From: Panopea generosa
Taxonomy: Eukaryota > Mollusca > Bivalvia > Adapedonta > Hiatellidae
Direction of reading: 5' to 3'
DNA: 64,000 nucleotides
Assembly: GCA_029582155.1 (NCBI GenBank)
Contig: CM055901.1
Location: 46,063,228 to 46,127,227, forward strand
Positions 13,281 through 58,365 of this stretch are shown here, in pieces (the stretch's first letter is position 1; each line of letters starts with the position of its first letter). Under the pieces are notes generated by a model, which searched no databases, was not told the DNA's origin, and worked only from the letters and a program-made list of their open reading frames with translations. The position numbers and the translations under genes are program-made.

Positions 13281-15398
13281 AGTAGGGTATGTAGAAACTA
13301 AGGTTGACGCTCAATATTCGCAGTTCTCCTGTTGTCCGCTCCAAGCACTGTTATTATTTGTGTATGTTTATACCTGTGGATCGAGAAGTAGAGTATGTAT
13401 AATCTAAGATTGACGCTCCATATTTGAAGTTCTCCTGTTGTCCGCTCCAAGCACTGTTATTATTTTTGTATGTTTATACCTGTGGATCGAGGAGTAGGGT
13501 ATGTATAATCTAAAGTTGACGATCCATATTCGCAGTTTCCTGTTGTCCGCTCCAAGCACTGTTATTATTTTTGTATGTTTATACCTGTGGATCGAGAAGT
13601 AGGGCATGTAGAAACTAAGGTTGACGCTCCATATTCGAAGCTCACCTGTTGTCCGCTCCAAGCACTGATATTATTTTTGTATGTTAATACCTGTGGATCG
13701 AGAAGTAGAGTATGTATAATCTAAGATTGACGCTCCATATTCGCAGTTCTCCTGTTGTCCGCTCCAAGTACTGTTATTATTTTTGTATGTTTATACCTGT
13801 GGATCGAGAAGTAGAGTATGTATAATCTAAGATTGACGCACCATATTCGCAGTTCTCCTGTTGTCCGCTCCAAGCACTGATATTATTTTTGTATGTTAAT
13901 ACCTGTGGATCGAGAAGTAGGGTATGTAGAAACTAAGGTTGACGCTCCATATTCGCAGTTCTCTTGTTGTCCGCTCCTAGAACTGTTATTATTTTTGTAT
14001 GTTTATACCTGTGGATCGAGAAGTAGGGCATGTAGAAACTAAGGTTGACGCTCCATATTCGAAGTTCTCCTGTTGTCCACTCCAAGCACTGATATTATTT
14101 TTGTATGTTAATACCTGTGGATCGAGAAGTAGGGCATGTATAATCTAAGGTTGACGCTCCATATTCGCAGTTCTCCTGTTGTCCGCTCCAAGCACTGTTA
14201 TTATTTTTGTATGTTTATACCTGTGGATCGAGAAGTAGGGCATGCAGAAACTAAGGTTGACGCTCCATATTCGCAGTTCTCCTGTTGTCCGCTCCAAGCA
14301 CTGTTATTATTTTTGTATGTTTATACCTGTGGATCGAGAAGTAGGGTATGTAGAAACTAAGGTTGACGCTCAATATTCGGAGTTCTCCTGTTGTCCGCTC
14401 CAAGCACTGTTATTATTTGTGTATGTTTATACCTGTGGATCGAGAAGTAGAGTATGTATAATCTAAGATTGACGCTCCATATTTGAAGTTCTCCTGTTGT
14501 CCGCTCCAAGCACTGTTATTATTTTTGTATGTTTATACCTGTGGATCGAGGAGTAGGGTATGTATAATCTAAAGTTGACGATCCATATTCGCAGTTTCCT
14601 GTTGTCCGCTCCAAGCACTGTTATTATTTTTGTATGTTTATACCTGTGGATCGAGAAGTAGGGCATGTAGAAACTAAGGTTGACGCTCCATATTCGAAGC
14701 TCACCTGTTGTCCGCTCCAAGCACTGATATTATTTTTGTATGTTAATACCTGTGGATCGAGAAGTAGAGTATGTATAATCTAAGATTGACGCTCCATATT
14801 CGCAGTTCTCCTGTTGTCCGCTCCAAGTACTGTTATTATTTTTGTATGTTTATACCTGTGGATCGAGAAGTAGAGTATGTATAATCTAAGATTGACGCAC
14901 CATATTCGCAGTTCTCCTGTTGTCCGCTCCAAGCACTGATATTATTTTTGTATGTTAATACCTGTGGATCGAGAAGTAGGGTATGTAGAAACTAAGGTTG
15001 ACGCTCCATATTCGCAGTTCTCTTGTTGTCCGCTCCTAGAACTGTTATTATTTTTGTATGTTTATACCTGTGGATCGAGAAGTAGGGCATGTAGAAACTA
15101 AGGTTGACGCTCCATATTCGAAGTTCTCCTGTTGTCCACTCCAAGCACTGATATTATTTTTGTATGTTAATACCTGTGGATCGAGAAGTAGGGCATGTAT
15201 AATCTAAGGTTGACGCTCCATATTCGCAGTTCTCCTGTTGTCCGCTCCAAGCACTGTTATTATTTTTGTATGTTTATACCTGTGGATCGAGAAGTAGGGC
15301 ATGCAGAAACTAAGGTTGACGCTCCATATTCGCAGTTCTCCTGTTGTCCGCTCCAAGCACTGTTATTATTTTTGTATGTTTATACCTGTGGATCGAGA
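13281..15398. repeat. 10-monomer higher-order duplication (1059 bp x 2)
   Basis: AGTAGGGTATGTAGAAACTA at 13281 recurs at 14340, and the rare variants CTAAAGTTGACGATCC, ATATTTGAAGTT and GTATGTTAATACC follow in the same order in both copies. Boundaries are approximate. Confidence 0.85.
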
Positions 15399-20264: not shown

Positions 20265-20982
20265 AATTTTAATAAACCTGACCTATCTCATGACGATTAC
20301 CATTCATATATGTTAATAAACCTGGCCTATCTCATGACGATTACCATTCATATATGTTAATAAACCTGGCCTATCTCATGACGATTACCATTCATATATG
20401 TAAATAAACCTGGCCTATCTCATGACGATTACCATTCATATATGTTAATAAACCTGGCCTATCTCATGACGATTACCATTCATATATGTTAATAAACCTG
20501 GCCTATCTCATGACGATTACCATTCATATATGTTAATAAACCTGGCCTATCTCATGACGATTACCATTCATATATGTTAATAAACCTGGCCTATCTCATG
20601 ATGATTACCATTCATATATGTTAATAAACCTGGCCTATCTCATGACGATTACCATTCATATATGTTAATAAACCTGGCCTATCTCATGACGATTACCATT
20701 CATATATGTTAATAAACCTGGCCTATCTCATGACGATTACCATTCATATATGTTAATAAACCTGGCCTATCTCATGACGATTACCATTCATATATGTTAA
20801 TAAACCTGGCCTATCTCATGACGATTACCATTCATATATGTTAATAAACCTGGCCTATCTCATGACGATTACCATTCATATATGTTAATAAACCTGGCCT
20901 ATCTCATGACGATTACCATTCATATATGTTAATTAACCTAGCCTATCTCATGACGATTGCCATTCATATATGTTAATAAATA
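20265..20982. repeat. 44-bp near-perfect minisatellite, about 16 copies
   Basis: The unit is GTTAATAAACCTGGCCTATC, TCATGACGATTACCATTCAT, ATAT. Interior copies differ by at most a base or two; only the first (GACCTATC) and last (AATTAACCTAGCC) units carry several changes. This is the most homogeneous array of the window and so probably a recent expansion. Confidence 0.96.
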
Positions 20983-21139
20983 ATTCAATACTTGCGTGTT
21001 TGTTAACCAGCATTTTGCTGGAACGTTTTACTTGATTTCTGTTCAAATATTGAATGGGGTATAGTTTAAAGCCATTTTCATCACATACTGTTATTGTATG
21101 GTGTTTTGTGTAACTTTTAATCATTTTTCAGTCATATCG

Positions 21140-21405
21140 CGACGAGGTCTACTTGAGACAATATTCTGAGCGCTGTCACACTGGAATATCATGCCGCAGA
21201 CACATGGCATGATACCCCTACTCAGGCACATATTATACTGACACCGGGTCGACCAGACCTAGAAGTATTCTCTAAATATTTATCACCAAGCGAGGAAGAT
21301 ACTAGAACCATTTTCCAAGTCTTAAGAGTAACCCGGCCGAGGATCAAACCAGTAACTTTCCGCATCTGATGCGGATGCTCTACCACTGGACCACCAATGA
21401 ACACA
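21140..21405 (-). mobile_element. SINE-like element with tRNA-derived head
   Basis: Read on the minus strand it begins near 21402 with GGTGGTCCAGTGGTAGAGCA (an RNA polymerase III A-box region) and has a B-box-like CTGGTTTGATCCTCGG near 21350. A unique body follows, containing GGTCGACCCGGTGTCAGTAT and ending near CAGCGCTCAGAATATTG. Such tRNA-headed elements depend on LINE proteins for movement. Its body is unlike the tRNA-Leu-like family next to it. Exact ends and target duplication were not established. The 61-codon frame on it is a shadow. Confidence 0.7.
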
Positions 21406-21474
21406 AATACTATATGTTATATAGGTAGAGGAAGAGTTCAGATACAACAAGGACTCTCTTTATAATTCCTTGGA

Positions 21475-21600
21475 TACAAGTTCAATCTGAGTAAAATCCT
21501 ACTGTTTTCCGCAAATAATTGGCAAACTTCCTCACATAAATATATTGGATTGTGTTGGACTCGAACCTATGACATCAGTGGCAGAGGAAAGTCTGAATAT
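21475..21600 (-). mobile_element. Partial SINE of the tRNA-Leu-like family
   Basis: The minus strand reads GTCATAGGTTCGAGTCC (B box), then TATGTGAGGAAGTTTGCCAA, TTATTTGCGGAAAACAG and TTTTACTCAGATTGAAC. This matches the central domain of the plus-strand SINE just to its right and of the copy at 54986. The A-box end and the tail are not recognisable, so it is truncated or decayed. It lies head to head with the element at 21605. Confidence 0.72.
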
Positions 21601-24600
21601 GTATGAGGAGGGGGTGGGTCGGTTCCTCCATGGCCTAATAGTCAAAGATGCTATCTTAAGAACACTCTACCTCTCCACGCTAAGGTCGTAGGTTCTAGTT
21701 CTGCTCGCTCCAAAAACTTTAGGTGAGGAAGTTTGCCAGTTACATGTGGAAGGGTGGTGGTACTACTCAGATTCATTCTGCGATCTACCTCTAACAATAA
21801 AACTGGATAAGCCATATACATAACCTGAATTGTGATGTAAATGTACCGGTACCTCTACCAATTGAACTGGAAAAGCCATATACATCACCTGAAATGTGAT
21901 GTAAATGTACAGGTACCGCTGCCAATTAAACGTAATAAGCCATATATATAACCTGAAATGTGATGTAAATGTACCGGAACCTCTACCAATAAAACTGGAT
22001 AAGCCATATATATAACGTGAAATGTGATGTAAATGTACCGATACATCTACTAATAAAACTGGATAAGCCATATATACAACCTGAAATGTGATGTAAATGT
22101 ACCGGTACCTATACCAATCAAACTGGATAATCCATATATATAACCTGAAATGTGATGTAAATGTACCGGTACCTCTACCAATTAAACTGGATAAGCCATA
22201 TATATAACCTGAAATGTGATGTAAATGTACCGTACCTCTACCAATAAAACTGGATAAGCCATATATATAACCTGAAATGTGATGTAAATGTACCGGTACC
22301 TCTACCAATTGAACTGGAAAAGCCATATATATAACATGAAATGTGATTTAAATGTACCGGTACCTCTACCAATTAAACTGGATAAGCCATATATATAACC
22401 TGAAATGTGATGTAAATGTACCGGTACCTCTACCAATTGAACTGGAAAAGCCATATATATAACATGAAATGTGATGTAAATGTACAGGTACCTCTACCAA
22501 TAAAACTGGATAATCCATATATATAACCTGAAATGTGATGTAAATGTACCGGTACCTCTACCTATAAAACTTGATAATCCATATATATAACGTGAAATGT
22601 GATGTAAATGTACCGGTACCTCTACCAATTGAACTGGAAAAGCCATATATATAACCTGAAATGTGATGTAAATGTACCGGTACCTCTACCAATTGAACTG
22701 GAAAAGCCATATATATAAACTGAAATGTGATGTAAATGTACAGGTACCTCTACCAATAAAACTGGATAATCCATATATATAACCTGAAATGTGATGTAAA
22801 TGTACCGGTACCTCTACCTATAAAACTTGATAATCCATATATATAACGTGAAATGTGATGTAAATGTACCGGTACCTCTACCAATTGAACTGGAAAAGCC
22901 ATATATATAGCATGAAATGTGATGTAAATGTACCGGTACTTCTACCAATAAAACTGGATAATCCATATATATAACCTGAAATGTGATGTAAATGTACCTG
23001 TACCTCTACCAATTGAACTGGAAAAGCCATATATTTAACCTGAAATGTGATTTAAATGTACCGGTACCTCTACCAATTAAACTGGATAAGCCATATATAT
23101 AACCTGAAATGTGATGTAAATTTACAGGTACCTCTACCAATTGAACTGGAAAAGCCATATATTTAACCTGAAATGTGATTTAAATGTACCGGTACCTCTA
23201 CCAATTGAACTGGAAAAGCCATATATATAGCATGAAATGTGATGTAAATGTACCGGTACTTCTACCAATAAAACTGGATAATCCATATATATAACCTGAA
23301 ATGTGATGTAAATGTACAGGTACCTCTACCAATTGAACTGGAAAAGCCATATATATAACATGAAATGTGATGTAAATGTACCGGTACCTCTACCAATAAA
23401 ACTGGATAATCCATATATATAACCTGAAATGTGATTTAAATGTACCGGTACCTCTACCTATAAAACTTGATAATCCATATATATAACGTGAAATGTGATG
23501 TAAATGTACCGGTACCTCTACCAATTGAACTGGAAAAGCCATATATATAACCTGAAATGTGATGTAAATGTACCTGTACCTCTACCAATTGAACTGGAAA
23601 AGCCATATATTTAACCTGAAATGTGATTTAAATGTACCGGTACCTCTACCAATTGAACTGGAAAAGCCATATATATAGCATGAAATGTGATGTAAATGTA
23701 CCGGTACTTCTACCAATAAAACTGGATAATCCATATATATAACCTGAAATGTGATGTAAATGTACAGGTACCTCTACCAATTGAACTGGAAAAGCCATAT
23801 ATATAACATGAAATGTGATGTAAATGTACCGGTACCTCTACCAATAAAACTGGATAATCCATATATATAACCTGAAATGTGATTTAAATGTACCGGTACC
23901 TCTACCTATAAAACTTGATAATCCATATATATAACGTGAAATGTGATGTAAATGTACCGGTACCTCTACCAATTGAACTGGAAAAGCCATATATATAACC
24001 TGAAATGTGATGTAAATGTACCGGTACCTCTACCAATAAAACTGGATAAGCCATATATATAAACTGAAATGTCATGTAAATGTACCGGTACTTCTACCAA
24101 TTGAACTGGAAAAGTCATATATATAACCTGAAATGTGATGTAAATGTACCGGTACCTCTACCAATGAAACTGGATAAGCCATATATATAACCTGAAATGT
24201 GATGTAAATGTACCGTTACCTCTACCAATAAAACTGGATAAGCCATATATATAACCTGAAATGTGATGTAAATGTACCGGTACCTCTACCAATTAAACTG
24301 GATAAGCCATATATATAAACTGAAATGTGATGTAAATGTACCGGATCCTCTACTAATCAAACTGGATAAGCCATATATATAACCTGAAATGTGATGTAAA
24401 TGTACCGGTACTTCTACCAATTGAACTGGAAAAGCCATATATATAACCTGAAATGTGATGTAAATGTATCGGAACCTCTACTAATAAAACTGGATAAGCC
24501 ATATATTATATAACCTGAAATGTGATGTAAATGTACCGGTGCCTCTACTAATAAAACTGGATAAGCCGTATATTATATAACCTGAAACGTGATGTAAATG

Positions 24601-26934
24601 TACCGATACCTCTACCAATTGAACTGGAAAAGCCATATATATAGCATGAAATGTGATGTAAATGTACAGGTACCTCTACCAATAAAACTGGATAATCCAT
24701 ATATATAACCTGAAATGTGATGTAAATGTACCGGTACCTCTACCTATAAAACTTGATAATCCATATATATAACGTGAAATGTGATGTAAATGTACCGGTA
24801 CCTCTACCAATTGAACTGGAAAAGCCATATATATAACCTGAAATGTGATGTAAATGTACCGGTACCTCTACCAATTGAACTGGAAAAGCCATATATATAG
24901 CATGAAATGTGATGTAAATGTATCGGTACCTCTACCAATAAAACTGGATAATCTATATATATAACCTGAAATGTGATGTAAATGTACCTGTACCTCTACC
25001 AATTGAACTGGAAAAGCCATATATTTAACCTGAAATGTGATTTAAATGTACCGGTACCTCTACCAATTAAACTGGATAAGCCATATATATAACCTGAAAT
25101 GTGATGTAAATTTACCGGTACCTCTACCAATTGAACTGGAAAAGCCATATATATAACATGAAATGTGATGTAAATGTACCGGTACCTCTACCAATAAAAC
25201 TGGATAATCCATATATATAACCTGAAATGTGATGTAAATGTACCGGTACCTCTACCAATAAAACTGGATAATCCATATATATAACCTGAAATGTGATTTA
25301 AATGTACCGGTACCTCTACCTATAAAACTTGATAATCCATATATATAACGTGAAATGTGATGTAAATGTACCGGTACCTCTACCAATTGAACTGGAAAAG
25401 CCATATATATAACCTGAAATGTGATGTAAATGTATCGGTACCTCTACCAATAAAACTGGATAAGCCATATATATAACCTGAAATGTCATGTAAATGTACC
25501 GGTACTTCTACCAATTGAACTGGAAAAGCCATATATATAACCTGAAATGTGATGTAAATGTACCGGTACCTCTACCAATGAAACTGGATAAGCCATATAT
25601 ATAACCTGAAATGTGATGTAAATGTACCGGTACCTCTACCAATTAAACTGGATAAGCCATATATATAACCTGAAATGTGATGTAAATGTACCGGTACCTC
25701 TACTAATCAAACTGGATAAGCCATATATATAACCTGAAATGTGATGTAAATGTACCGGTACTTCTACCAATTGAACTGGAAAAGCCATATATATAATCTG
25801 AAATGTGATGTAAATGTATCGGAACCTCCACTAATAAAACTGGATAAGCCATATATTATATAACCTGAAATGTGATGTAAATGTACCGGTGCCTCTACCA
25901 ATTGAACTGGATAATCAATATATATAACCTGAAATGTGATGTAAATGTACCGGTACCTCTACCAATAAAACTTGATAAGCCATAACCTGAAATGTGATGT
26001 AAATGTACCGGTACCTCTACCAATCAAACTGGATAATCAATATATATAACCTGAAATGTGATGTAAATGTACCGGTACCTCTACCAATCAAACTGGATAA
26101 TCAATATATCTAACCTGAAATGTGATGTAAATGTACCGGTACCTCTACCAATCAAACTGGATAATCAATATATATAACCTGAAATGTGATGTAAATGTAC
26201 CGGTACCTCTACCAATAAAACTTGATAGTCCATATATATAACCTGAAATGTGATGTAAATGTACCGGTACCTCTACCAATTAAACTGGATTAGCCATATA
26301 TATAACCTGAAATGTGATGTAAATGTACCGGTACCTCTACCAATTAAACTGGACAAACCATATATATAACGTGAAATGTGATGTAAATGTACCGGTACTT
26401 CTACCAATTAAACTGGATAAGTCATATTATATAACCTGAAATGTGATGTAAATGAACAGGTACCTCTACCAATAAAACTGGATAATCCTTATATATAACC
26501 TGAAATATGATGTAAATGAACAGGTACCTCTACCAATTAAACGAGACAAGCCATATGTATAACCTGAAATGTGATGTAAATGTACCGGTACCTCTACCAA
26601 TTAAACGAGACAAGCCATATTAATAACCTGACATGTGATGTAAATGTACCGGTACCTCTACCAATAAAATTGGACAAGCCATATATATAACCTGAAATGT
26701 GATGTAAATGTACCGGTACCTCTACCAATTAAACTGGATAAGCCATATATATAACCTAAAATGTGATGTAAATGTTGCAGTAACTCTACCAATTTAACTG
26801 GCTAAGCCATATATATAACCTGAAATGTGATGTAAATGTACCGGTACCTCTACCAATAAAACTGGATAAGCCATATATATAACCTGAAATGTGATGTGAA
26901 TGTACCGGAACCTCTACCAATCAAACTTGATAAT

Positions 26935-26936
<2 letters not shown>

Positions 26937-27003
<67 letters not shown>
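26937..27003. repeat. (TA)n tract, ~67 nt
   Basis: The ATATATATA part of one 64-bp monomer is expanded to about 67 nt of alternating AT. A shorter sister tract lies in the duplicated block at 28904-28967. Confidence 0.92.
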
Positions 27004-27004
<1 letters not shown>

Positions 27005-28901
27005 CGTAAAATGTAATATAAATGTACCGGTACCTCTACCAATTAAACTGGATAAGTCATATATATAACCTGAAATGTGACGTAAATGTACCGGTACCTC
27101 CACCAATCAAACTGAATAAGCCATATATATAACCTGAAATGTGATGTAAATGTACCGGTACATCTACCAATCAAACTGGATAAGCTATATATATAACCTG
27201 AAATGTTATGTAAATGTACCGGTACCTCTACCAATAAAACTGGATAAGCCATATATATAACCTGAAATGTGATGTAAATGTACCGGTAATTCTACCAATA
27301 AAACTTGATAAGCCATATATATAACCTGAAATGTGATGTAAATGTACCGGTACCTCTACCAATAAAACTGGACAAACCATATATATAACCTGAAATGTGA
27401 TGTAAATGTACCGGTACCTCTACCAATAAAACTGGATAAGCAATATATATAACCTGAAATGTGATGTAAATGTACCGGTACCTCTCTCAATTAAACTGGA
27501 TAAGTCATATATATAACCTGAAATGTGACGTAAATGTACCGGTACCTCTACCAATCAAACTGAATAAGCCATATATATAACCTGAAATGTGATGTAAATG
27601 TACCGGTACATCTACCAATCAAACTGGATAAGCTGTATATATAACCTGAAATGTTATGTAAATGTACCGGTACCTCTACCAATAAAACTGGATAAGCCAT
27701 ATATATAACCTGAAATGTGATGTAAATGTACCGGTAATTCTACCAATAAAACTTGATAAGCCATATATATAACCTGAAATGTGATGTAAATGTACAGGTA
27801 CCTCTACCAATAAAACTGGACAAACCATATATATAACCTGAAATGTGATGTAAATGTACCGGTACCTCTACCAATAAAACTTGATAAGCCATAACCTGAA
27901 ATGTGATGTAAATGTACCGGTACCTCTACCAATCAAACTGGATAATCAATATATATAACCTGAAATGTGATGTAAATGTACCGGTACCTCTACCAATCAA
28001 ACTGGATAATCAATATATATAACCTGAAATGTGATGTAAATGTACCGGTACCTCTACTAATAAAACTGGATAAGCCATAACCTGAAATGTGATGTAAATG
28101 TACCGGTACCTCTACCAATCAAACTGGATAATCAATATATATAACCTGAAATGTGATGTAAATGTACCGGTACCTCTACCAATAAAACTTGATAGTCCAT
28201 ATATATAACCTGAAATGTGATGTAAATGTACCGGTACCTCTACCAATTAAACTGGATTAGCCATATATATAACCTGAAATGTGATGTAAATGTACCGGTA
28301 CCTCTACCAATTAAACTGGACAAACCATATATATAACGTGAAATGTGATGTAAATGTACCGGTACTTCTACCAATTAAACTGGATAAGTCATATTATATA
28401 ACCTGAAATGTGATGTAAATGAACAGGTACCTCTACCAATAAAACTGGATAATCCTTATATATAACCTGAAATATGATGTAAATGAACAGGTACCTCTAC
28501 CAATTAAACGAGACAAGCCATATGTATAACCTGAAATGTGATGTAAATGTACCGGTACCTCTACCAATTAAACGAGACAAGCCATATTAATAACCTGACA
28601 TGTGATGTAAATGTACCGGTACCTCTACCAATAAAATTGGACAAGCCATATATATAACCTGAAATGTGATGTAAATGTACCGGTACCTCTACCAATTAAA
28701 CTGGATAAGCCATATATATAACCTAAAATGTGATGTAAATGTTGCAGTAACTCTACCAATTTAACTGGCTAAGCCATATATATAACCTGAAATGTGATGT
28801 AAATGTACCGGTACCTCTACCAATAAAACTGGATAAGCCATATATATAACCTGAAATGTGATGTGAATGTACCGGAACCTCTACCAATCAAACTTGATAA
28901 T

Positions 28902-28903
<2 letters not shown>

Positions 28904-28967
<64 letters not shown>
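28904..28967. repeat. (TA)n tract, ~64 nt
   Basis: This is the sister of the tract at 26937, in the second copy of the ~1.9-kb block. The small length difference is what slippage after the block duplication would give. Confidence 0.92.
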
Positions 28968-29999
28968 CGTAAAATGTAATATAAATGTACCGGTACCTCT
29001 ACCAATTAAACTGGATAAGTCATATATATAACCTGAAATGTGACGTAAATGTACCGGTACCTCCACCAATCAAACTGAATAAGCCATATATATAACCTGA
29101 AATGTGATGTAAATGTACCGGTACATCTACCAATCAAACTGGATAAGCTATATATATAACCTGAAATGTTATGTAAATGTACCGGTACCTCTACCAATAA
29201 AACTGGATAAGCCATATATATAACCTGAAATGTGATGTAAATGTACCGGTAATTCTACCAATAAAACTTGATAAGCCATATATATAACCTGAAATGTGAT
29301 GTAAATGTACCGGTACCTCTACCAATAAAACTGGACAAACCATATATATAACCTGAAATGTGATGTAAATGTACCGGTACCTCTACCAATAAAACTGGAT
29401 AAGCAATATATATAACCTGAAATGTGATGTAAATGTACCGGTACCTCTCTCAATTAAACTGGATAAGTCATATATATAACCTGAAATGTGACGTAAATGT
29501 ACCGGTACCTCTACCAATCAAACTGAATAAGCCATATATATAACCTGAAATGTGATGTAAATGTACCGGTACATCTACCAATCAAACTGGATAAGCTGTA
29601 TATATAACCTGAAATGTTATGTAAATGTACCGGTACCTCTACCAATAAAACTGGATAAGCCATATATATAACCTGAAATGTGATGTAAATGTACCGGTAA
29701 TTCTACCAATAAAACTTGATAAGCCATATATATAACCTGAAATGTGATGTAAATGTACAGGTACCTCTACCAATAAAACTGGACAAACCATATATATAAC
29801 CTGAAATGTGATGTAAATGTACCGGTACCTCTACCAATAAAACTGGATAAGCAATATATATAACCTGAAATGTGATGTAAATGTACCGGTACCTCTCTCA
29901 ATTAAACTGGATAAACCATATATATAACCTGAAATGTGATGTAAATGTACAGGTACCTCTACCAATAAAACTGGATAAGCCATATATATAACCTGAAAT

Positions 30000-32290
30000 G
30001 TGATGTAAATGTACAGGTACCTCTACCAATAAAACTGGATAACTATATATATTACTGAAATGTGATGTAAATGTACCGGTACCTCTACCAATAAAACTGG
30101 ATAAGCCATATATATAACCTGAAATGTGATATTAATGTACCGGTACCTCTACCAATAAAACTGGATAATCCATATATATAACCTGAAATGTGATGTAAAT
30201 GTACCGGTACCTCTATCAATAAATCTGGATAAGCCATATATATATAACCTGAAATGTGATGTAAATGTACAGGTACCTCTACCAATAAAACTGGATAACT
30301 ATATATATTACTGAAATGTGATGTAAATGTACAGGTACCTCTACCAATAAAACTGGATAAGCCATATATTTATAACCTGAAATGTGATGTAAATGTACCG
30401 GTACCTCTACCAATAAAACTGGATAATCCATATATATATAACCTGAAATGTGATGTAAATGTACCGGTAACTCTATCAATAAAACTTGATAATCCATATA
30501 TATACAACCTGAAATGTGATGTTTATGTACCGGTACATCTACCAATCAAACTGGATAAGCTATATATATAACCTGAAATGTTATGTAAATGTACCGGTAC
30601 CTCTACCAATTAAACTGGATTAGCCATATATATAACCTGAAATGTGATGTAAATGTACAGGTACCTCTACCAATTAAACTGGACAAGCCATATATATAAC
30701 CTGAAATGTGATGTAAATGTACAGGTACCTCTACCAATTAAACTGGATTAGCCATATATATAACCTGAAATGTGATGTAAATGTACCGGTACCTCTACCA
30801 ATTAAACTCGACAAGCCATATATATATAACCTGAAATGTGATGTAAATGTACCGGTACCTCTACCAATTAAACTGGATTAGCCATATGTATAACCTGAAA
30901 TGTGATGTAAATGTACCGGTACCTCTACCAATTAAACTGGATTAGCCATATATATAACCTGAAATGTGATGTAAATGTACCGGTACCTCTACCAATTAAA
31001 CTGGATTAGCCATATATATATAACCTGAAATGTGTTGTAAATGTACCGGTACCTCTACCAATTAAACTGGATAAGCCATATATATAACCTGAAATGTGTT
31101 GTAAATGTACCGGTACTTCTACCAATTAAACTGGATAAGCCATATATATAACCAATAAAACTGGATAAGCCATATATATAACCTGAAATGTGATGTAAAT
31201 GTACAGGTACCTCTACCAATAAAACTGGATAACTATATATATATTACTGAAATGTGATGTAAATGTACCGGTACCTCTACCAATAAAACTGGATAAGCCA
31301 TATATATAACCTGAAATGTGATATTAATGTACCGATACCTCTACCAATAAAACTGGATAATCCATATATATAACCTGAAATGTGATGTTAATGTACCGGT
31401 ACCTCTATCAATAAATCTGGATAAGCCATATATATATAACCTGAAATGTGATGTAAATGTACAGGTACCTCTACCAATAAAACTGGATAACTATATATAT
31501 TACTGAAATGTGATGTAAATGTACAGGTACCTCTACCAATAAAACTGGATAAGCCATATATTTATAACCTGAAATGTGATGTAAATGTACCGGTACCTCT
31601 ACCAATAAAACTGGATAATCCATATATATATAACCTGAAATGTGATGTAAATGTACCGGTACCTCTATCAATAAAACTTGATAATCCATATATATACAAC
31701 CTGAAATGTGATGTTTATGAACCGATACATCTACCAATCAAACTGGATAAGCTATATATATAACCTGAAATGTTATGTAAATGTACCGGTACCTCTACCA
31801 ATTAAACTGGATTAGCCATATATATAACCTGAAATGTGATGTAAATGTACAGGTACCTCTACCAATTAAACTGGACAAGCCATATATATAACCTGAAATG
31901 TGATGTAAATGTACAGGTACCTCTACCAATTAAACTGGATTAGCCATATATATAACCTGAAATGTGATGTAAATGTACCGGTACTTCTACCAATTAAACT
32001 CGACAAGCCATATATATATAACCTGAAATGTGATGTAAATGTACCGGTACCTCTACCAATTAAACTGGATTAGCCATATGTATAACCTGAAATGTGATGT
32101 AAATGTACCGGTACCTCTACCAATTAAACTGGATTAGCCATATATATAACCTGAAATGTGATGTAAATGTACCGGTACCTCTACCAATTAAACTGGATTA
32201 GCCATATATATATAACCTGAAATGTGTTGTAAATGTACCGGTACCTCTACCAATTAAACTGGATAAGCCATATATATAACCTGAAATGTG
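30000..32290. repeat. 1.19-kb higher-order duplication in the 64-bp array
   Basis: The rare monomer CTCTATCAATAAATCTGG occurs at 30211 and 31403 (1192 bp apart), with matching order of the neighbours GATAACTATATATATTACTG and TATATACAACCTG in both copies. Boundaries are approximate. Confidence 0.82.
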
Positions 32291-32310
32291 ATGTAAATGT
32301 ACAGGTACCT

Positions 32311-32880
32311 TTACCGATTAAACTGGATAAGCCATATGTATAACCTGAAATGTGATGTTAATGTACCGGAACCTCTACCAATAAAACTGGATAAGCCATA
32401 TATATTACCTGAAATGTGATGTAAATGTACCGGTACCTCTACCGATAAAACTGGATAAGCCATATATATAACCTGAAATGTGATGTAAATGTACCGGTAC
32501 CTCTACCAATGAAACTGGATAAGCCATATATATAACCTGAAATGTGATGTAAATGTACAGGTACCTTTACCGATTAAACTGGATAAGCCATATATATAAC
32601 CTGAAATATGATGTTAATGTACCGGAACCTCTACCAATAAAACTGGATAAGCCATATATATTACCTGAAATGTGATGTAAATGTACCGGTACCTCTACCG
32701 ATAAAACTGGATAAGCCATATATATAACCTGAAATGTGATGTAAATGTACCGGTACCTCTACCAATGAAACTGGATAAGCCATATATATAACCTGAAATG
32801 TGATGTAAATGTACAGGTACCTTTACCGATTAAACTGGATAAGCCATATATATAACCTGAAATGTGATGTTAATGTACCG
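32311..32880. repeat. Exact 256-bp (4 x 64) higher-order repeat
   Basis: TTACCGATTAAACTGG starts at 32311, 32567 and 32823, that is at exactly 256-bp steps, with the same three monomers in between. Confidence 0.9.
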
Positions 32881-34322
32881 GAACCTCTACCAGTTAAACT
32901 GGAAAAGCCATATATATAACCTGAAATGAGTTGTAAATGTACCGGTACCTCTACCAATTGAACTGGATAAGCCATATATATAACCTGAAATGTGTTGTAA
33001 ATGTACCGGTACCTCTACCAATAAAACTGGACAAGCCATATATATAACCTGTAATGTGTTGTATTGTAAATGTACCGATACCTCTACCAATTAAACTGGA
33101 CAAGCCATATATATAACCTGAAATGTTATGTAAATGTACCGGTACCTCTACCAATCAAACTGGATAAGCCATATATATAACCTGAAATGTGTTGTAAATG
33201 TACCGGTACCTCTACCAATAAAACTGGACAAGCAATACATATAACCTGAAATGTGATGTAAATGTACCGATACCTCTACCAATAAAACTGGATAAGCCAT
33301 ATATATAACCTGAAATGTGATGTAAATGTACTGGTACCTCTACCAATAAAACTGGACAAGCCATATATATAACCTGAAATGTGATGTAAATGTACCGGTA
33401 CGTCTACCAATTAAACTGGACAAGCCATATATATAACCTGAAATGTGCTGTAAATGTACCGGAACCTCTACCAATAAAACTGGATAAGCCATATATATTA
33501 CCTGAAATGTGATGTAAATGTACTGGTACCTATACCAATTAAACTGGACAAGCCATATATATATAACCTGAAATGTGATGTAAATGTACAGGTACCTCTA
33601 CCAATAAAACTGGATAAGCCATGTATATAACCTGAAATGTGATGTAAATGTGCCGGTACCTCTACCAATTAAACTGGACAAGCCATATACATAACCTGAA
33701 ATGTGATGTAAATGTACCCGTACCTCTACCAATAAAACTGGATAAGCCATGTATATTACTGAAATGTGATATAAATGTACCGGTACCTCTACCAATTAAA
33801 CTGGTCAAGCCATATACATAACCTGAAATGTGATTGAAATATACCGGTACTTCTACCAATTAAACTGGATATGTCATATGTATAACCTGAAATGTGATGT
33901 AAATATACTGATACCTCTACCAATTAAACTGGATAAGCAATATATATATTTTGAAATGTGATGTAAATGTACCGGTACCTCTACCAATAAAACTGGACAA
34001 GCCATATGTATAACCTGAAATGTGATGTAAATGTACCGGTACCTCTACCAATAAAACTGGATCAGCCATATATGTAACCTGAAATGTGATGTAAATGTAC
34101 CGGTACCTCTACCAATAAAACTGGACAAGCCATATGTATAACCTGAAATGTGATGTAAATGTACCGGTACCTCTACCAATAAAACTGGATCAGCCATATA
34201 TGTAACCTGAAATGTGATGTAAATGTACCGGTACATCTACCAATTAAACTGGATAAGCCATATATATAACTTAAATTGTTATGTATATATATATTGCGTT
34301 AAACGTCATTCAATATATGTAT

Positions 34323-42350: not shown

Positions 42351-44138
42351 AGCTGAAGATACAGCACTTGTAAATAAAACGAAAAGGAACAAAATGTAAG
42401 TTATATCATGGTACAGAAAATTCCACCCTTTTTGATGAATTATAACTGTAGCATGATACAGTCCAACTGCACCAAAACCATAGTTAAATATGCAGATATG
42501 ATTTCGTTGTTAGCGTTGTATTCACATAATTTTTACAACACATAATTAGTAGCAAATTGTTACATTTGCATAATTGAAATAAATCCGCGATTCCATAATT
42601 TTAGTAGCATGGGCTACCGCTTTGGAACAAACAGTCATAATGCAAGACATACTAAAAAAGCGACAGCTGGGGTTACCGCCATGGAGCACACAGTAATAAA
42701 ACAATATATGCTTATAATACAATATATACTTAATATAGTAGTGACAGAATCGGTTACCACCTTGGACCAAGCAGTAATAATGTAAAAAGTACTAAAAATA
42801 GAAGTGATAATGTGCGTAACCGCCTTGGACCAAGCAGTTATAATGCAAAATATATTAAAATAGAAATGGCAGCATGGGTTACCGCCTTATAGCAAGCAAT
42901 ACAAATACAATATATACCAAAAATAAAAATGACAGCATGTGTAACCACCTTAGAGCAGACAGTAATAATGCAATATATACTAAAATAGAAATGGCAGCAT
43001 GGGTTATCGCCTTATAGCAAGCAATACTAATACAATATATACCAAATATAGCAGTGACAGCATGTGTTACCGCCTTAGAACAGACAGTAATAATGTAATA
43101 TATACAAAAATAGAAATGGCAGCATGGGTTACTGCCTTATAGCAAGCAATACTAATACAATATATACCAAAAATAGAAGTTACAACATGTGTTACCGCCT
43201 TGAAACAGACAGTAATAATGCAATATATACTTAAATAGAAATGGCAACATGGGTTACCGCCTTATAGCAAGCAATACTAATACAATATATACCAAAAATA
43301 GAAGTGACAGCATGTGTTACCTTCTTAGAATAAACAGCAACAGAACAAGATATACTTGATCTGGAAGAAGTAACAGCATGTATTACCGCCGTGGACCGGT
43401 CAGTTTGGCTATATTATAATGGATATCGAAATATGCATATGTTTTATGCCCGAGTGCAATGATTGGACGGCCTCGTCACGTCTGATACACCGAAACACGT
43501 GTTTCACGGACAATATCAATAATTTATATATTACGAAAACATCTATTTTTGCTGCTATCTGACAACTAGCCACTTTTTTTATTCATTTTTTAATAATTCA
43601 TAACATACCTTCGTAATGTTTGCATATTTTAAATATAGATTTGAAATGTATAACTATATTAGTAACATTAATATAAAAGCGGCACGGTGCTCGGTACAAC
43701 ATTGTGTTAGCCGGAAAAGAATTTTGGTCAGAATTAGAACACTGATTAATTGTAAAGTGACATCAAAGCGGTACAATAAACTCTATAGAACTATTATTAT
43801 GAATATTTCATTATTAAAACATAAATATTAGCAGACTAACGTCAATTAGTTTTATCTAAAATATTGGTATTGTACAATAGATAACGTGATACGCGTGTAT
43901 TTTATAAATACGTCAATAAAATACTCTTGTACTGTCATTGATTTTAAAACATTGATATAAGAGGAGACTTTGTTTCGAATAATAACTGTTTAAGGAAATT
44001 CATAAGGACTTTTGAAATTTTTAAAATTGGCTAAAATATTTTTGTTCAGTATATGTTCATCAAACAAGTCAAAATAATATATTGAAAAGGGATAACATAA
44101 CTTGGGCTACGTGCCTAGATTAGAATAAAATAGACCTT
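42073..44138. repeat. 2066-bp tandem segmental duplication, copy 1
   Basis: It begins inside the 30-bp array (CCAATTCTGCTTCCTTG) and ends at ATAAAATAGACCTT. It holds about 270 bp of the array, a ~62-bp array and about 700 bp of unique DNA. That unique part includes a perfect 14-bp palindrome GAAACACGTGTTTC (43492-43505) and a 71-codon frame (43616-43831) of unknown nature. I found no difference from copy 2 where I compared them. The same two bases, CC, follow both junctions, consistent with a 2-bp microhomology breakpoint. Confidence 0.95.
42595..43440. repeat. ~62-bp minisatellite with dimeric order, copy 1
   Basis: Monomers of the type ATAGAAATGGCAGCATGGGT, TACCGCCTTATAGCAAGCAA, TACTAATACAATATATACC alternate with AGTGACAGCATGTGTTACCG, CCTTAGAACAGACAGTAATA, ATGCAATATATACTA. 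The higher-order unit is ~125 bp. The left part is more diverged. Confidence 0.9.
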
Positions 44139-46204
44139 CCAATTCTGCTTCCTTGTATAGTGTACATCCAATTCTGCACCCTTGTATAGTGTACATCTGA
44201 TTCTGCACCATTGTATAGTGAAAATCTAATTCTGCACCCTTGTATAGTGTACATCCAATTCTGCAACCTTGTATAGTTTACATCTAAATCTGCACCCTTG
44301 TATAGTGTACATCCATTTTTGCACCATTGTATAGTGTATATCCAATTATGCACCCTTGTATTGTGTATATCCATTTCTGTACCCTTGTATAGTTTACATC
44401 CATTTCTGCTCCAGCAAGCTGAAGATACAGCACTTGTAAATAAAACGAAAAGGAACAAAATGTAAGTTATATCATGGTACAGAAAATTCCACCCTTTTTG
44501 ATGAATTATAACTGTAGCATGATACAGTCCAACTGCACCAAAACCATAGTTAAATATGCAGATATGATTTCGTTGTTAGCGTTGTATTCACATAATTTTT
44601 ACAACACATAATTAGTAGCAAATTGTTACATTTGCATAATTGAAATAAATCCGCGATTCCATAATTTTAGTAGCATGGGCTACCGCTTTGGAACAAACAG
44701 TCATAATGCAAGACATACTAAAAAAGCGACAGCTGGGGTTACCGCCATGGAGCACACAGTAATAAAACAATATATGCTTATAATACAATATATACTTAAT
44801 ATAGTAGTGACAGAATCGGTTACCACCTTGGACCAAGCAGTAATAATGTAAAAAGTACTAAAAATAGAAGTGATAATGTGCGTAACCGCCTTGGACCAAG
44901 CAGTTATAATGCAAAATATATTAAAATAGAAATGGCAGCATGGGTTACCGCCTTATAGCAAGCAATACAAATACAATATATACCAAAAATAAAAATGACA
45001 GCATGTGTAACCACCTTAGAGCAGACAGTAATAATGCAATATATACTAAAATAGAAATGGCAGCATGGGTTATCGCCTTATAGCAAGCAATACTAATACA
45101 ATATATACCAAATATAGCAGTGACAGCATGTGTTACCGCCTTAGAACAGACAGTAATAATGTAATATATACAAAAATAGAAATGGCAGCATGGGTTACTG
45201 CCTTATAGCAAGCAATACTAATACAATATATACCAAAAATAGAAGTTACAACATGTGTTACCGCCTTGAAACAGACAGTAATAATGCAATATATACTTAA
45301 ATAGAAATGGCAACATGGGTTACCGCCTTATAGCAAGCAATACTAATACAATATATACCAAAAATAGAAGTGACAGCATGTGTTACCTTCTTAGAATAAA
45401 CAGCAACAGAACAAGATATACTTGATCTGGAAGAAGTAACAGCATGTATTACCGCCGTGGACCGGTCAGTTTGGCTATATTATAATGGATATCGAAATAT
45501 GCATATGTTTTATGCCCGAGTGCAATGATTGGACGGCCTCGTCACGTCTGATACACCGAAACACGTGTTTCACGGACAATATCAATAATTTATATATTAC
45601 GAAAACATCTATTTTTGCTGCTATCTGACAACTAGCCACTTTTTTTATTCATTTTTTAATAATTCATAACATACCTTCGTAATGTTTGCATATTTTAAAT
45701 ATAGATTTGAAATGTATAACTATATTAGTAACATTAATATAAAAGCGGCACGGTGCTCGGTACAACATTGTGTTAGCCGGAAAAGAATTTTGGTCAGAAT
45801 TAGAACACTGATTAATTGTAAAGTGACATCAAAGCGGTACAATAAACTCTATAGAACTATTATTATGAATATTTCATTATTAAAACATAAATATTAGCAG
45901 ACTAACGTCAATTAGTTTTATCTAAAATATTGGTATTGTACAATAGATAACGTGATACGCGTGTATTTTATAAATACGTCAATAAAATACTCTTGTACTG
46001 TCATTGATTTTAAAACATTGATATAAGAGGAGACTTTGTTTCGAATAATAACTGTTTAAGGAAATTCATAAGGACTTTTGAAATTTTTAAAATTGGCTAA
46101 AATATTTTTGTTCAGTATATGTTCATCAAACAAGTCAAAATAATATATTGAAAAGGGATAACATAACTTGGGCTACGTGCCTAGATTAGAATAAAATAGA
46201 CCTT
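44139..46204. repeat. 2066-bp tandem segmental duplication, copy 2
   Basis: Directly adjacent to copy 1 in the same orientation. It starts with about 270 bp of 30-bp repeats that stand apart from the main array, which shows that the duplicated segment included the array's right end. Near-identity means either a very recent duplication or an assembly duplication. Confidence 0.95.
44661..45506. repeat. ~62-bp minisatellite, copy 2
   Basis: This is the same array as at 42595-43440, carried along in the second 2066-bp segment. Confidence 0.9.
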
Positions 46205-54465: not shown

Positions 54466-54985
54466 TCAGCATCAAATTTTCAGTACTGATTTCTAAAATA
54501 CTGACCATTTAACTCATGCTAGTAAAAAAATCATTGCAGTACAAAGCCCAGGGCAAGAAGATAAAGAGAGTTAAAAAAAAATTTCTACCTCCTTCATCTG
54601 GATATATATTTGTAACGAGTTTTTGTTATGACGTCGTCTATCAGTAATTTAAGCCAGGCGTATATTAGATGTAGTTCAATTAATTATATCAGTATGTTAA
54701 TGAATGTTTTATCGAGTAAAACATATAACAGCATACGAATGAATAAATAAATAATCACTTTTATCATATATAGGAATCTGATGTTGTTTTGTTATTGTGG
54801 GGTGAAACGTAGTAATAAGTTCTTGTGATACGCATTGCAGGTAATCCTTGCGTCAGTTAATGTAATATATTATTTTTATGGAACATCCTTTTATGTTTTG
54901 GTAATGTCGAATTTTAAAAGTTCTAAAAAACTTTAAACATAATTTTGACGAATTCCATCTTTTGCATCTTGTCCCAAAACGATCG

Positions 54986-55247
54986 GAGGGTCCTCCGTGG
55001 CCGAGTGGTCTAAGGCGCCGTCTCAAGATCACTTACCTCTCACCGCTATGGTCGTAGGTTCGAGTCCCGCTTGCTCCAAAAACTTTATGTGAGAAAGTTT
55101 CCAGTTACTTGCGGAAGGACGGTGGTTCTACTCAGTCTGACTCAGTCTGAGGTCTTCCTCCACCAGTAAAACTGGATATGCCATATATAACCTGAAATGT
55201 GTTGAAAATGGCGTTAAACCCCATTCAAAAAAAAAAAAACAAAAAAA
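54986..55247 (+). mobile_element. Intact SINE, tRNA-Leu-like head, with target duplication
   Basis: The head GTGGCCGAGTGGTCTAAGGC is the classic A-box region of tRNA-Leu, followed by GCCGTCTCAAGAT (a CAA anticodon-loop-like sequence) and GGTCGTAGGTTCGAGTCCCG (B box). It cannot be a working tRNA because the acceptor ends do not pair. The central domain AAGTTTCCAGTTACTTGCGG is shared with the other SINEs. One tail unit, CCAGTAAAACTGGATATGCC then ATATATAACCTGAAATGTG, equals one monomer of the 64-bp satellite. It ends with GGCGTTAAACC and poly-A. AAAACGATCG flanks it (54976-54985 and 55248-55257). Pol III transcription and LINE-aided insertion are inferred from family type. Confidence 0.92.
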
Positions 55248-55257
55248 AAAACGATCG

Positions 55258-58196: not shown

Positions 58197-58365
58197 GTCA
58201 GTAACCTCTGCCAGTAACCTCTGCCAGAAGCCTCTGCCAGTAACCTCTGCCGGTAGCCTCTGTCAGTAACCTCTTACAGTAACCTGTGCAAGTAACCTCT
58301 GCCAGTAACATATGTCAGAAACCTCTGCTAGTAACCTCTGCTTGTAACTTCTGCAAGTAATCACT
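58197..58365. repeat. 13-bp minisatellite, about 13 copies
   Basis: The plus strand reads CCTCTGCCAGTAA units. On the minus strand the unit is GTTACTGGCAGAG, continuous with the SINE central domain GTTACTTGCAGAA at the end nearest the SINE head. Substitutions increase toward that end (AAGCAG, CTAGCAG). Confidence 0.93.

Follow-up and report, generated by a model that had tools for sequence, protein, structure and literature searches.

A 12.5-kb satellite array in Panopea generosa is best read as the expanded 3' tail of a single SINE

The window that we analyzed, a stretch of 64,000 nucleotides, corresponds to C8:46063228-46127227 of the Panopea generosa genome (1.474 Gb in 39 contigs) and contains a long tandem array with a unit of 64 bp that is bounded on its left side by the head and central body of a short interspersed element (SINE) and closed on its right side by a SINE 3' terminus. 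An intact young SINE of the same family, which carries one tail unit, is present further to the right in the window. The coordinates of these features are collected in Table 1. Tandem repeats are abundant here and elsewhere in this genome: about 65% of the window lies in listed tandem arrays, and Tandem Repeats Finder (TRF) marked as tandem 28% of 200 kb that were sampled elsewhere as 20 stretches of 10 kb (L009-L028), which were taken at round-number coordinates on 13 contigs and are not random. Several arrays with units of 20-100 bp and more than 100 copies were found in the sampled stretches. The genome thus seems to be generally permissive to array growth, and for this reason the mere nearness of a SINE and an array is no evidence of a relationship between them, whereas identity between the repeat unit and a part of the SINE is.

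Table 1. Positions in the window of the array, the associated SINE parts and the intact reference copy.
Feature	Position	Strand	Basis and remarks
Candidate left target-site duplication ATATGTAT	21597..21604		Read directly; weak
SINE head and central body	21605..21785	+	BLAST to the intact SINE and alignment; recognisable SINE from 21621
Tandem array, 64-bp unit, 194.8 copies	21786..34285	+	TRF, monomer decomposition, unit mapping
Block of about 1.8 kb repeated rightward inside the array	26109..27893	+	Lag of 1,967 bp, then 1,963 bp beyond an (AT)n run
SINE 3' terminus, closes the array	34295..34312	+	3/18 mismatches; score above all controls
Candidate right target-site duplication ATATGTAT	34315..34322		Read directly; weak
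Intact young SINE of the same family, one tail unit, A-rich end	54986..55247	+	Flanked by AAAACGATCG (54976-54985, 55248-55257)

From its 3' end (GCGTTAAAC, CATTCA), this element may be a SINE of mollusc type, and GGTTCGAGTCC of the intact copy resembles the B box of RNA polymerase III promoters. ARAGORN with bacterial settings and Rfam with gathering cut-offs reported nothing in the window. Among the matches listed in a genome search with the intact SINE, 41 were 98-100% identical to it, itself included.

Both flanks of the array could be aligned to this SINE. On the left, BLAST matched 21621-21843 to positions 3-225 of the intact SINE (copy 54986-55227) with 80% identity (E 1.7e-51), and since this match extends to 21843, the SINE body passes unbroken into unit 1. 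A G-rich addition of about 16 bases (21605-21620) separates the left copy of ATATGTAT from the recognisable start of the SINE. On the right, TGCGTTAAACGTCATTCA differs from the end of the intact SINE at three of its 18 positions. In the rest of the window, sequences within five mismatches of TGCGTTAAACGTCATTCA were found solely at the intact SINE and as an overlapping reverse match with five mismatches. The local score of the terminus (25) was higher than that of every one of the 15,804 control draws (maximum 21), which were retained from 20,000 draws after those falling in the array or at the intact SINE had been removed. When the array was excised and the flanks were joined, 179 of 225 positions (79.6%) were identical to a family consensus built from nine copies, eight of them partial or full copies from the sampled stretches, with the array-bearing element itself excluded. 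Against the same consensus, the eight sampled copies score 80-89% and the young intact copy scores 94%, all nine being members of the consensus, and the sampled copies score high because the consensus was built from them. A preliminary description of the window, made from its letters, had placed a SINE head and central domain directly to the left of the array and the SINE terminus directly to its right; both placements were confirmed, and the alignment of the flanks with the intact SINE that it had proposed yielded one SINE.

The array zone was decomposed into 198 pieces; 189 of them represent nearly complete units, with a mean pairwise identity of 91%. As had also been proposed, the monomer corresponds to the single tail unit of the intact SINE (50 identities in 56 aligned letters, besides a 2-bp indel), and it maps to positions 158-211 of the 228-base family consensus, with 50 of 54 letters identical. 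About six bases at the 3' end of the unit (TACCGG) and two bases at its 5' end fall outside the alignment to the consensus. The junction from one unit to the next reads GTACCGG-TACCTC, and the consensus junction holds a 10-base palindrome, GTACCGGTAC. The SINE terminus is absent from the unit, which is therefore an internal segment of the tail that points to an internal duplication. Re-initiation of the reverse transcriptase on the 3' tail is not favoured for the same reason, because repeats made in this way should hold the terminus, and the units here, as well as those at ten other loci described below, stop short of it.

To whichever part of the SINE the array was compared, only the tail was recovered. 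The whole SINE as a query gave 196 matches inside the array, all on the plus strand and all at positions 171-225; the head and body (positions 1-165) matched nowhere in the array at E up to 1, and SINE position 225 was the furthest point reached by any match there. These data bear on the possibility, raised in the preliminary description, that two different SINE insertions flank the array, in which case two SINEs of the same orientation would have recombined, or would have flanked a pre-existing array, and the head and the terminus would derive from different insertions. Consecutive SINEs do exist in this genome (for example at L044), an antisense SINE (21051-21592) adjoins the left flank, and the 8-mer that is common to the two flanks is insufficient proof of a single insertion. 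Nevertheless, besides the absence of any SINE head or body from the array, the left copy does not have a separate terminus, nor does the right end have a separate head, and we regard an origin from two insertions as improbable. The order and orientation of the flanks fit one split element.

The 8-mer in question, ATATGTAT, had been put forward as a target-site duplication that flanks the whole structure. It is indeed present on both sides, but we rejected it as proof of one insertion, because the chance of finding a common 8-mer in two stretches of 40 bases is 3.1% for random sequence, 5.9% if the right flank is held constant and 1.5% if the left one is, that is, 1.5-6%. Good evidence is exemplified by the young family members: in all eight inspected by eye (L001-L008, one of which belongs to the window), the end is A-rich and the flanks carry repeats of about 10-13 bases.

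We then considered how the array relates to the rest of the family, using pattern counts that cover the entire genome. With up to two mismatches, the unit junction occurs 171 times, and all 171 occurrences lie in the array of the window; the junction of the 64-bp unit is private to a single locus at this threshold. None of the 39 scored relatives of the left SINE, out of 3,935 candidates, has a second tail unit. All 39 end by query position 240 of 310, and unit 2 begins at position 246. A count of tail units per SINE copy, as the preliminary description had suggested, was made at 28 fetched family loci, with matches short of consensus position 140 being dropped. One tail follows 28 of the 33 SINE body-ends at these loci, none follows three of them, and the remaining two belong to a single locus with two SINEs (L044). 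This latter locus contains two SINEs of the same orientation about 400 bp apart plus extra tail pieces, and it represents a tandem or nested SINE cluster. At the SINE matches in the 20 sampled stretches no second tail unit was seen, apart from a doubtful array in L010.

The agreement of the flanks in order and orientation, the restriction of SINE matches inside the array to positions 171-225, the absence of a second unit from all 39 scored relatives and the private junction together make one split SINE with tail growth after its insertion the best-supported reading of this locus. We consider it likely that the SINE inserted with a single tail, and that an internal segment of this tail was duplicated in place and grew to about 195 units. 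According to this scenario, an old tRNA-type SINE would have inserted at the site with an ordinary single 3' tail, of which some 54-64 bases, excluding the 3' terminus, would then have been duplicated in place. Unequal exchange, or replication-based copying of blocks of many units, could have expanded the resulting tandem pair to about 195 units, which would leave the SINE 5' part and the 3' terminus at opposite edges of the array. The preliminary description had likewise proposed one retroposed SINE with tail copies that grew after insertion. Its single split SINE is upheld as the best-supported interpretation, but the timing of the first duplication at the site after insertion, and with it the molecular growth process, are matters that we infer.

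The segment that gave rise to this array has been amplified at other places in the genome as well. A query of three units returned 74 matches elsewhere, many of them in tandem, and the longer alignments were about 80% identical at best. This search scored 39 of 930 candidates and revealed 11 loci with more than one match, of which ten were fetched (C1:75663089 was left out). All ten are arrays of the SINE 3' region, a result that is uninformative on the frequency of such arrays or on the preferred SINE part, because the loci were chosen for tandem matches to a tail query. Their periods are 63, 65, 60, 59, 52, 50, 55, 55, 59 and 53 bp, and their breakpoints fall at positions 141-153 and 193-204, compared to 158 and 211 in the array of the window. 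The ten arrays represent seven breakpoint pairs, three of which are common to two loci each (L052 and L057, L053 and L054, L055 and L056). At all four loci where the left edge is well inside the fetched stretch (L051, L052, L053 and L055), the sequence immediately upstream is SINE body or head. L055 also closes with the SINE terminus, and therefore looks like a seven-unit version of the architecture in the window with the head located beyond the fetched stretch. Thus, the same tail segment became an array repeatedly in this genome.

These arrays also bear on the direction of descent. Homology between the unit and the SINE tail is by itself directionless, and would equally be expected if the satellite had existed first and the SINE family had acquired its tail from it. 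However, the tail motif TGCCATATATAACCTG is found at 14,779 exact places genome-wide, as opposed to the single locus of the array junction, and other sub-segments of this tail are repeated in the other arrays, which makes the SINE the likelier common ancestor. An origin of the tail from the satellite is, in our judgment, hardly credible.

To obtain a view of tail arrays that covers the whole genome, exact pairs of TGCCATATATAACCTG at 27-57 bases from each other were counted. There are 3,285 such pairs, none of which is contributed by the window, and a control with the reversed pattern gave 0. The first 100 pairs listed belong to 20 loci on C1 and on C2 up to 28.7 Mb (together about 130 Mb), which by rough extrapolation corresponds to some 220 tail-pair loci in the genome if the remainder is alike. 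The pair counts at C2:10889-13378 are partial, which leaves the number of loci unaffected. The spacing is mainly 55 bp at 11 of these 20 loci, and several loci have one pair among those listed. The array at C1:100633311 actually advances by 20 bp per step; the period of 60 found there therefore represents three steps, and arrays of this type yield overlapping pairs. In the same pair test, the body motif AAACTTTATGTGAGAA gave 21 pairs at two loci in the whole genome. The difference between tail and body is pronounced, but it is based on one motif per region and on a single spacing range that was taken from the tail arrays, and body arrays with other periods are missed by it. As single motifs, tail and body were similarly frequent where they were counted: exact copies of the tail, body and head motifs number 20, 15 and 12, respectively, in the 28 family loci, whose selection relied on queries that include the tail. 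The 20 sampled stretches hold no exact copy of any of these motifs, and with up to two mismatches they hold 4, 6 and 1. On this basis, it is conceivable, and we put it forward as a tentative proposal that falls somewhat short of an even chance, that the SINE 3' tail is a hotspot of array birth, with on the order of hundreds of arrays that range from two to about 195 units and many of which have their own breakpoints, other parts of the SINE being rarely repeated at such spacing. If true, the tail sequence or its handling would drive satellite birth, and a tail bias that is upheld by a full count would offer a way into the question of which properties predispose a sequence to satellite formation.

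Several individual loci seen in these searches deserve mention. A SINE-tail array of about 2.5 kb at C2:10889-13378 is situated near the contig end and recalls the subtelomeric preference of squamate SINE-derived satellites. At C1:4905469-4905524 and C1:100633311-100633466, copies of the 16-base tail motif follow each other every 20 bp, and a much shorter tail-derived unit is possible. The sole sizeable array of the body motif in the pair search is located at C12:59156196-59159547 (3.3 kb, mostly 46-bp steps). The L010 array (L010:6180-7533) consists of 28 units of 48 bp with a stretch of 23-25 bases that resembles the SINE tail. A birth of this array from a tail is doubtful, as the match is limited to these 23-25 bases, with E 7e-4 among 59 units, and no SINE was found in the flanks that were read.

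A number of observations, some of them on the other tail arrays, weigh against a duplication that took place at the site. At six of the ten other loci the breakpoints occur in pairs, and 55 bp is the commonest spacing among the 20 listed tail-pair loci; therefore, some tails may have been duplicated before insertion and may then have multiplied by retroposition. Such a history is also possible for the locus in the window if its relatives were lost or have diverged by more than two mismatches. Moreover, the search for relatives and the three-unit search did not list the window's own copies, and it follows that these searches miss loci. The array-bearing element is only about 80% like its family and no source copy was identified for it, and the ATATGTAT duplication is weak evidence for a single insertion. 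A rival explanation is one in which the inserted SINE already had two or more tail units from its source copy and only the later growth was local, since junctions that are common in pairs and an excess of 55-bp spacing would be expected from a retroposing subfamily with a duplicated tail. Recurrent duplication at the same short matches would, however, give the same paired junctions and 55-bp excess. In addition, the array junction is found nowhere else at up to two mismatches and a second unit is missing from all 39 scored relatives. Accordingly, we view inheritance of an already duplicated tail as unlikely, and we prefer a first duplication in the inserted copy.

The array itself carries marks of its growth. 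The block of about 1.8 kb listed in Table 1 is repeated with high fidelity: 26109-27001 is 99.6% identical to the sequence at a lag of 1,967 bp, as is 26937-27893 at a lag of 1,963 bp. A second block of about 0.65 kb (30471-31116) recurs 1,192 bp onward with 99.2% identity. Windows of 600 bp in the block copies are up to 100% identical, compared to 91% between units generally, and stretches of ten to nearly thirty units were therefore copied late. Adjacent units differ by 5.4 positions on average (lag 1), and the overall mean is 5.8; neighbours are barely more similar than distant units, which fits repeated block exchange. The consensus of the units differs at 6 of 56 positions from the intact tail and at 4 of 54 from the family consensus, whereas the whole element differs from the consensus by about 20%. 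As judged from these sequence comparisons, the low divergence of the units would fit a homogenisation that took place after the element had aged. A gradient of divergence from the edges to the centre was rejected: the first three units and the last one stand out, with no trend along the array. Likewise, the edges do not retain SINE-like diagnostic letters: in each of the first six and the last four units inspected, 0 of 6 differences show the letter of the SINE. The (AT)n runs of more than 60 bp at 26937-27003 and 28904-28966 occupy equivalent places in the block copies 1.97 kb apart.

Satellites that arise from parts of transposons were already known, as the preliminary description had correctly stated. 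The SINE-derived satellites sSat1-3 were surveyed in 56 squamate genomes (PMC10702118). Their units are parts of SINEs, one locus has more than 1,200 units, the breakpoints vary between taxa and longer arrays are more homogeneous. The array in the window resembles them in several respects. Its unit corresponds to part of a SINE, over less than the full length of the element (positions 158-211 of 228), and its terminal units continue to the SINE end, with the head and body on the left and the terminus on the right. The squamate satellites have at least four head-to-tail units and reach hundreds, comparable to the 194.8 copies in the window, and breakpoints differ in both systems, by taxon in squamates. 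Unlike the units of the major squamate variants, which are found at many loci, the junction in the window was found at one locus (171/171), although squamates also have loci with their own variable units (PMC10702118). In contrast to the subtelomeric tendency of the squamate satellites, the window is located at 46.06-46.13 Mb of C8, a contig that extends to at least 76.6 Mb (match C8:76612767). The SINE families and the host are different too, and the arrays described here derive from the SINE 3' region, but it should be noted that this region was the query.

In the limpet Patella caerulea, the satellite PcH-sat contains a 118-bp segment of the Nin-SINE (PMC11121367), and is thus similarly a satellite with a unit that holds a SINE segment. 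According to that report, PcH-sat has a 179-bp unit, amounts to about 10% of the genome and is pericentromeric on five chromosome pairs, as opposed to one 12.5-kb array with a private junction here. A review (PMC9659126) lists tandem repeats of SINE or SINE-like origin, including salamander Hy/Pol III (RNA polymerase III), Xenopus satellite 1, the mouse B1-derived (GGCAGA)n and Alu minisatellites; these are tandem derivatives as in the present case, but of other elements and regions and in other hosts. No title on tail arrays of this SINE was encountered in a literature search restricted to open-licence papers. The preliminary description considered a visible birth of a satellite, with head, tail and unexpanded reference all preserved, to be unusual. 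This view does not stand, given the further tail arrays in the same genome and an uncommon rattlesnake variant in which repeats lie between the two SINE termini, as reported in the squamate survey (PMC10702118). Judged by these descriptions, the array of the window has the structural features of SINE-derived satellites and is a well-preserved case of a known kind.

How a satellite arose is often difficult to reconstruct later; here the origin, the edges and the unexpanded relatives are all readable. Parallel arrays with one ancestor make breakpoints, microhomology, growth and homogenisation measurable from a common starting sequence. The repeated formation of tail arrays, which goes beyond what was first noted for this window, opens satellite birth to counting.

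Some other repeats in the window were also observed. The antisense SINE that adjoins the array-bearing element on the left (21051-21592, minus strand) is an old copy of the same SINE and, by eye, is apparently interrupted by another tRNA-like element. About 70 bp past its 3' end lies a 44-bp array of 16 near-identical units (20269-20980). On the minus strand, a 13-bp minisatellite (58360-58199) comes directly after a SINE head at 58489-58376 and may be a second array that arose within a SINE. The derivation of this minisatellite (58199-58360) from the SINE body is suggestive but not firm, as its unit agrees in 10 of 13 letters with the body at the point where the SINE match ends, with a chance of about 4% at that place and 16% anywhere in the SINE. 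Finally, TRF gave identical rows for 42696-43337 and 44762-45403, which are 2,066 bp apart; together with adjacent reading frames that are partly identical, this suggests that about 2 kb were duplicated.

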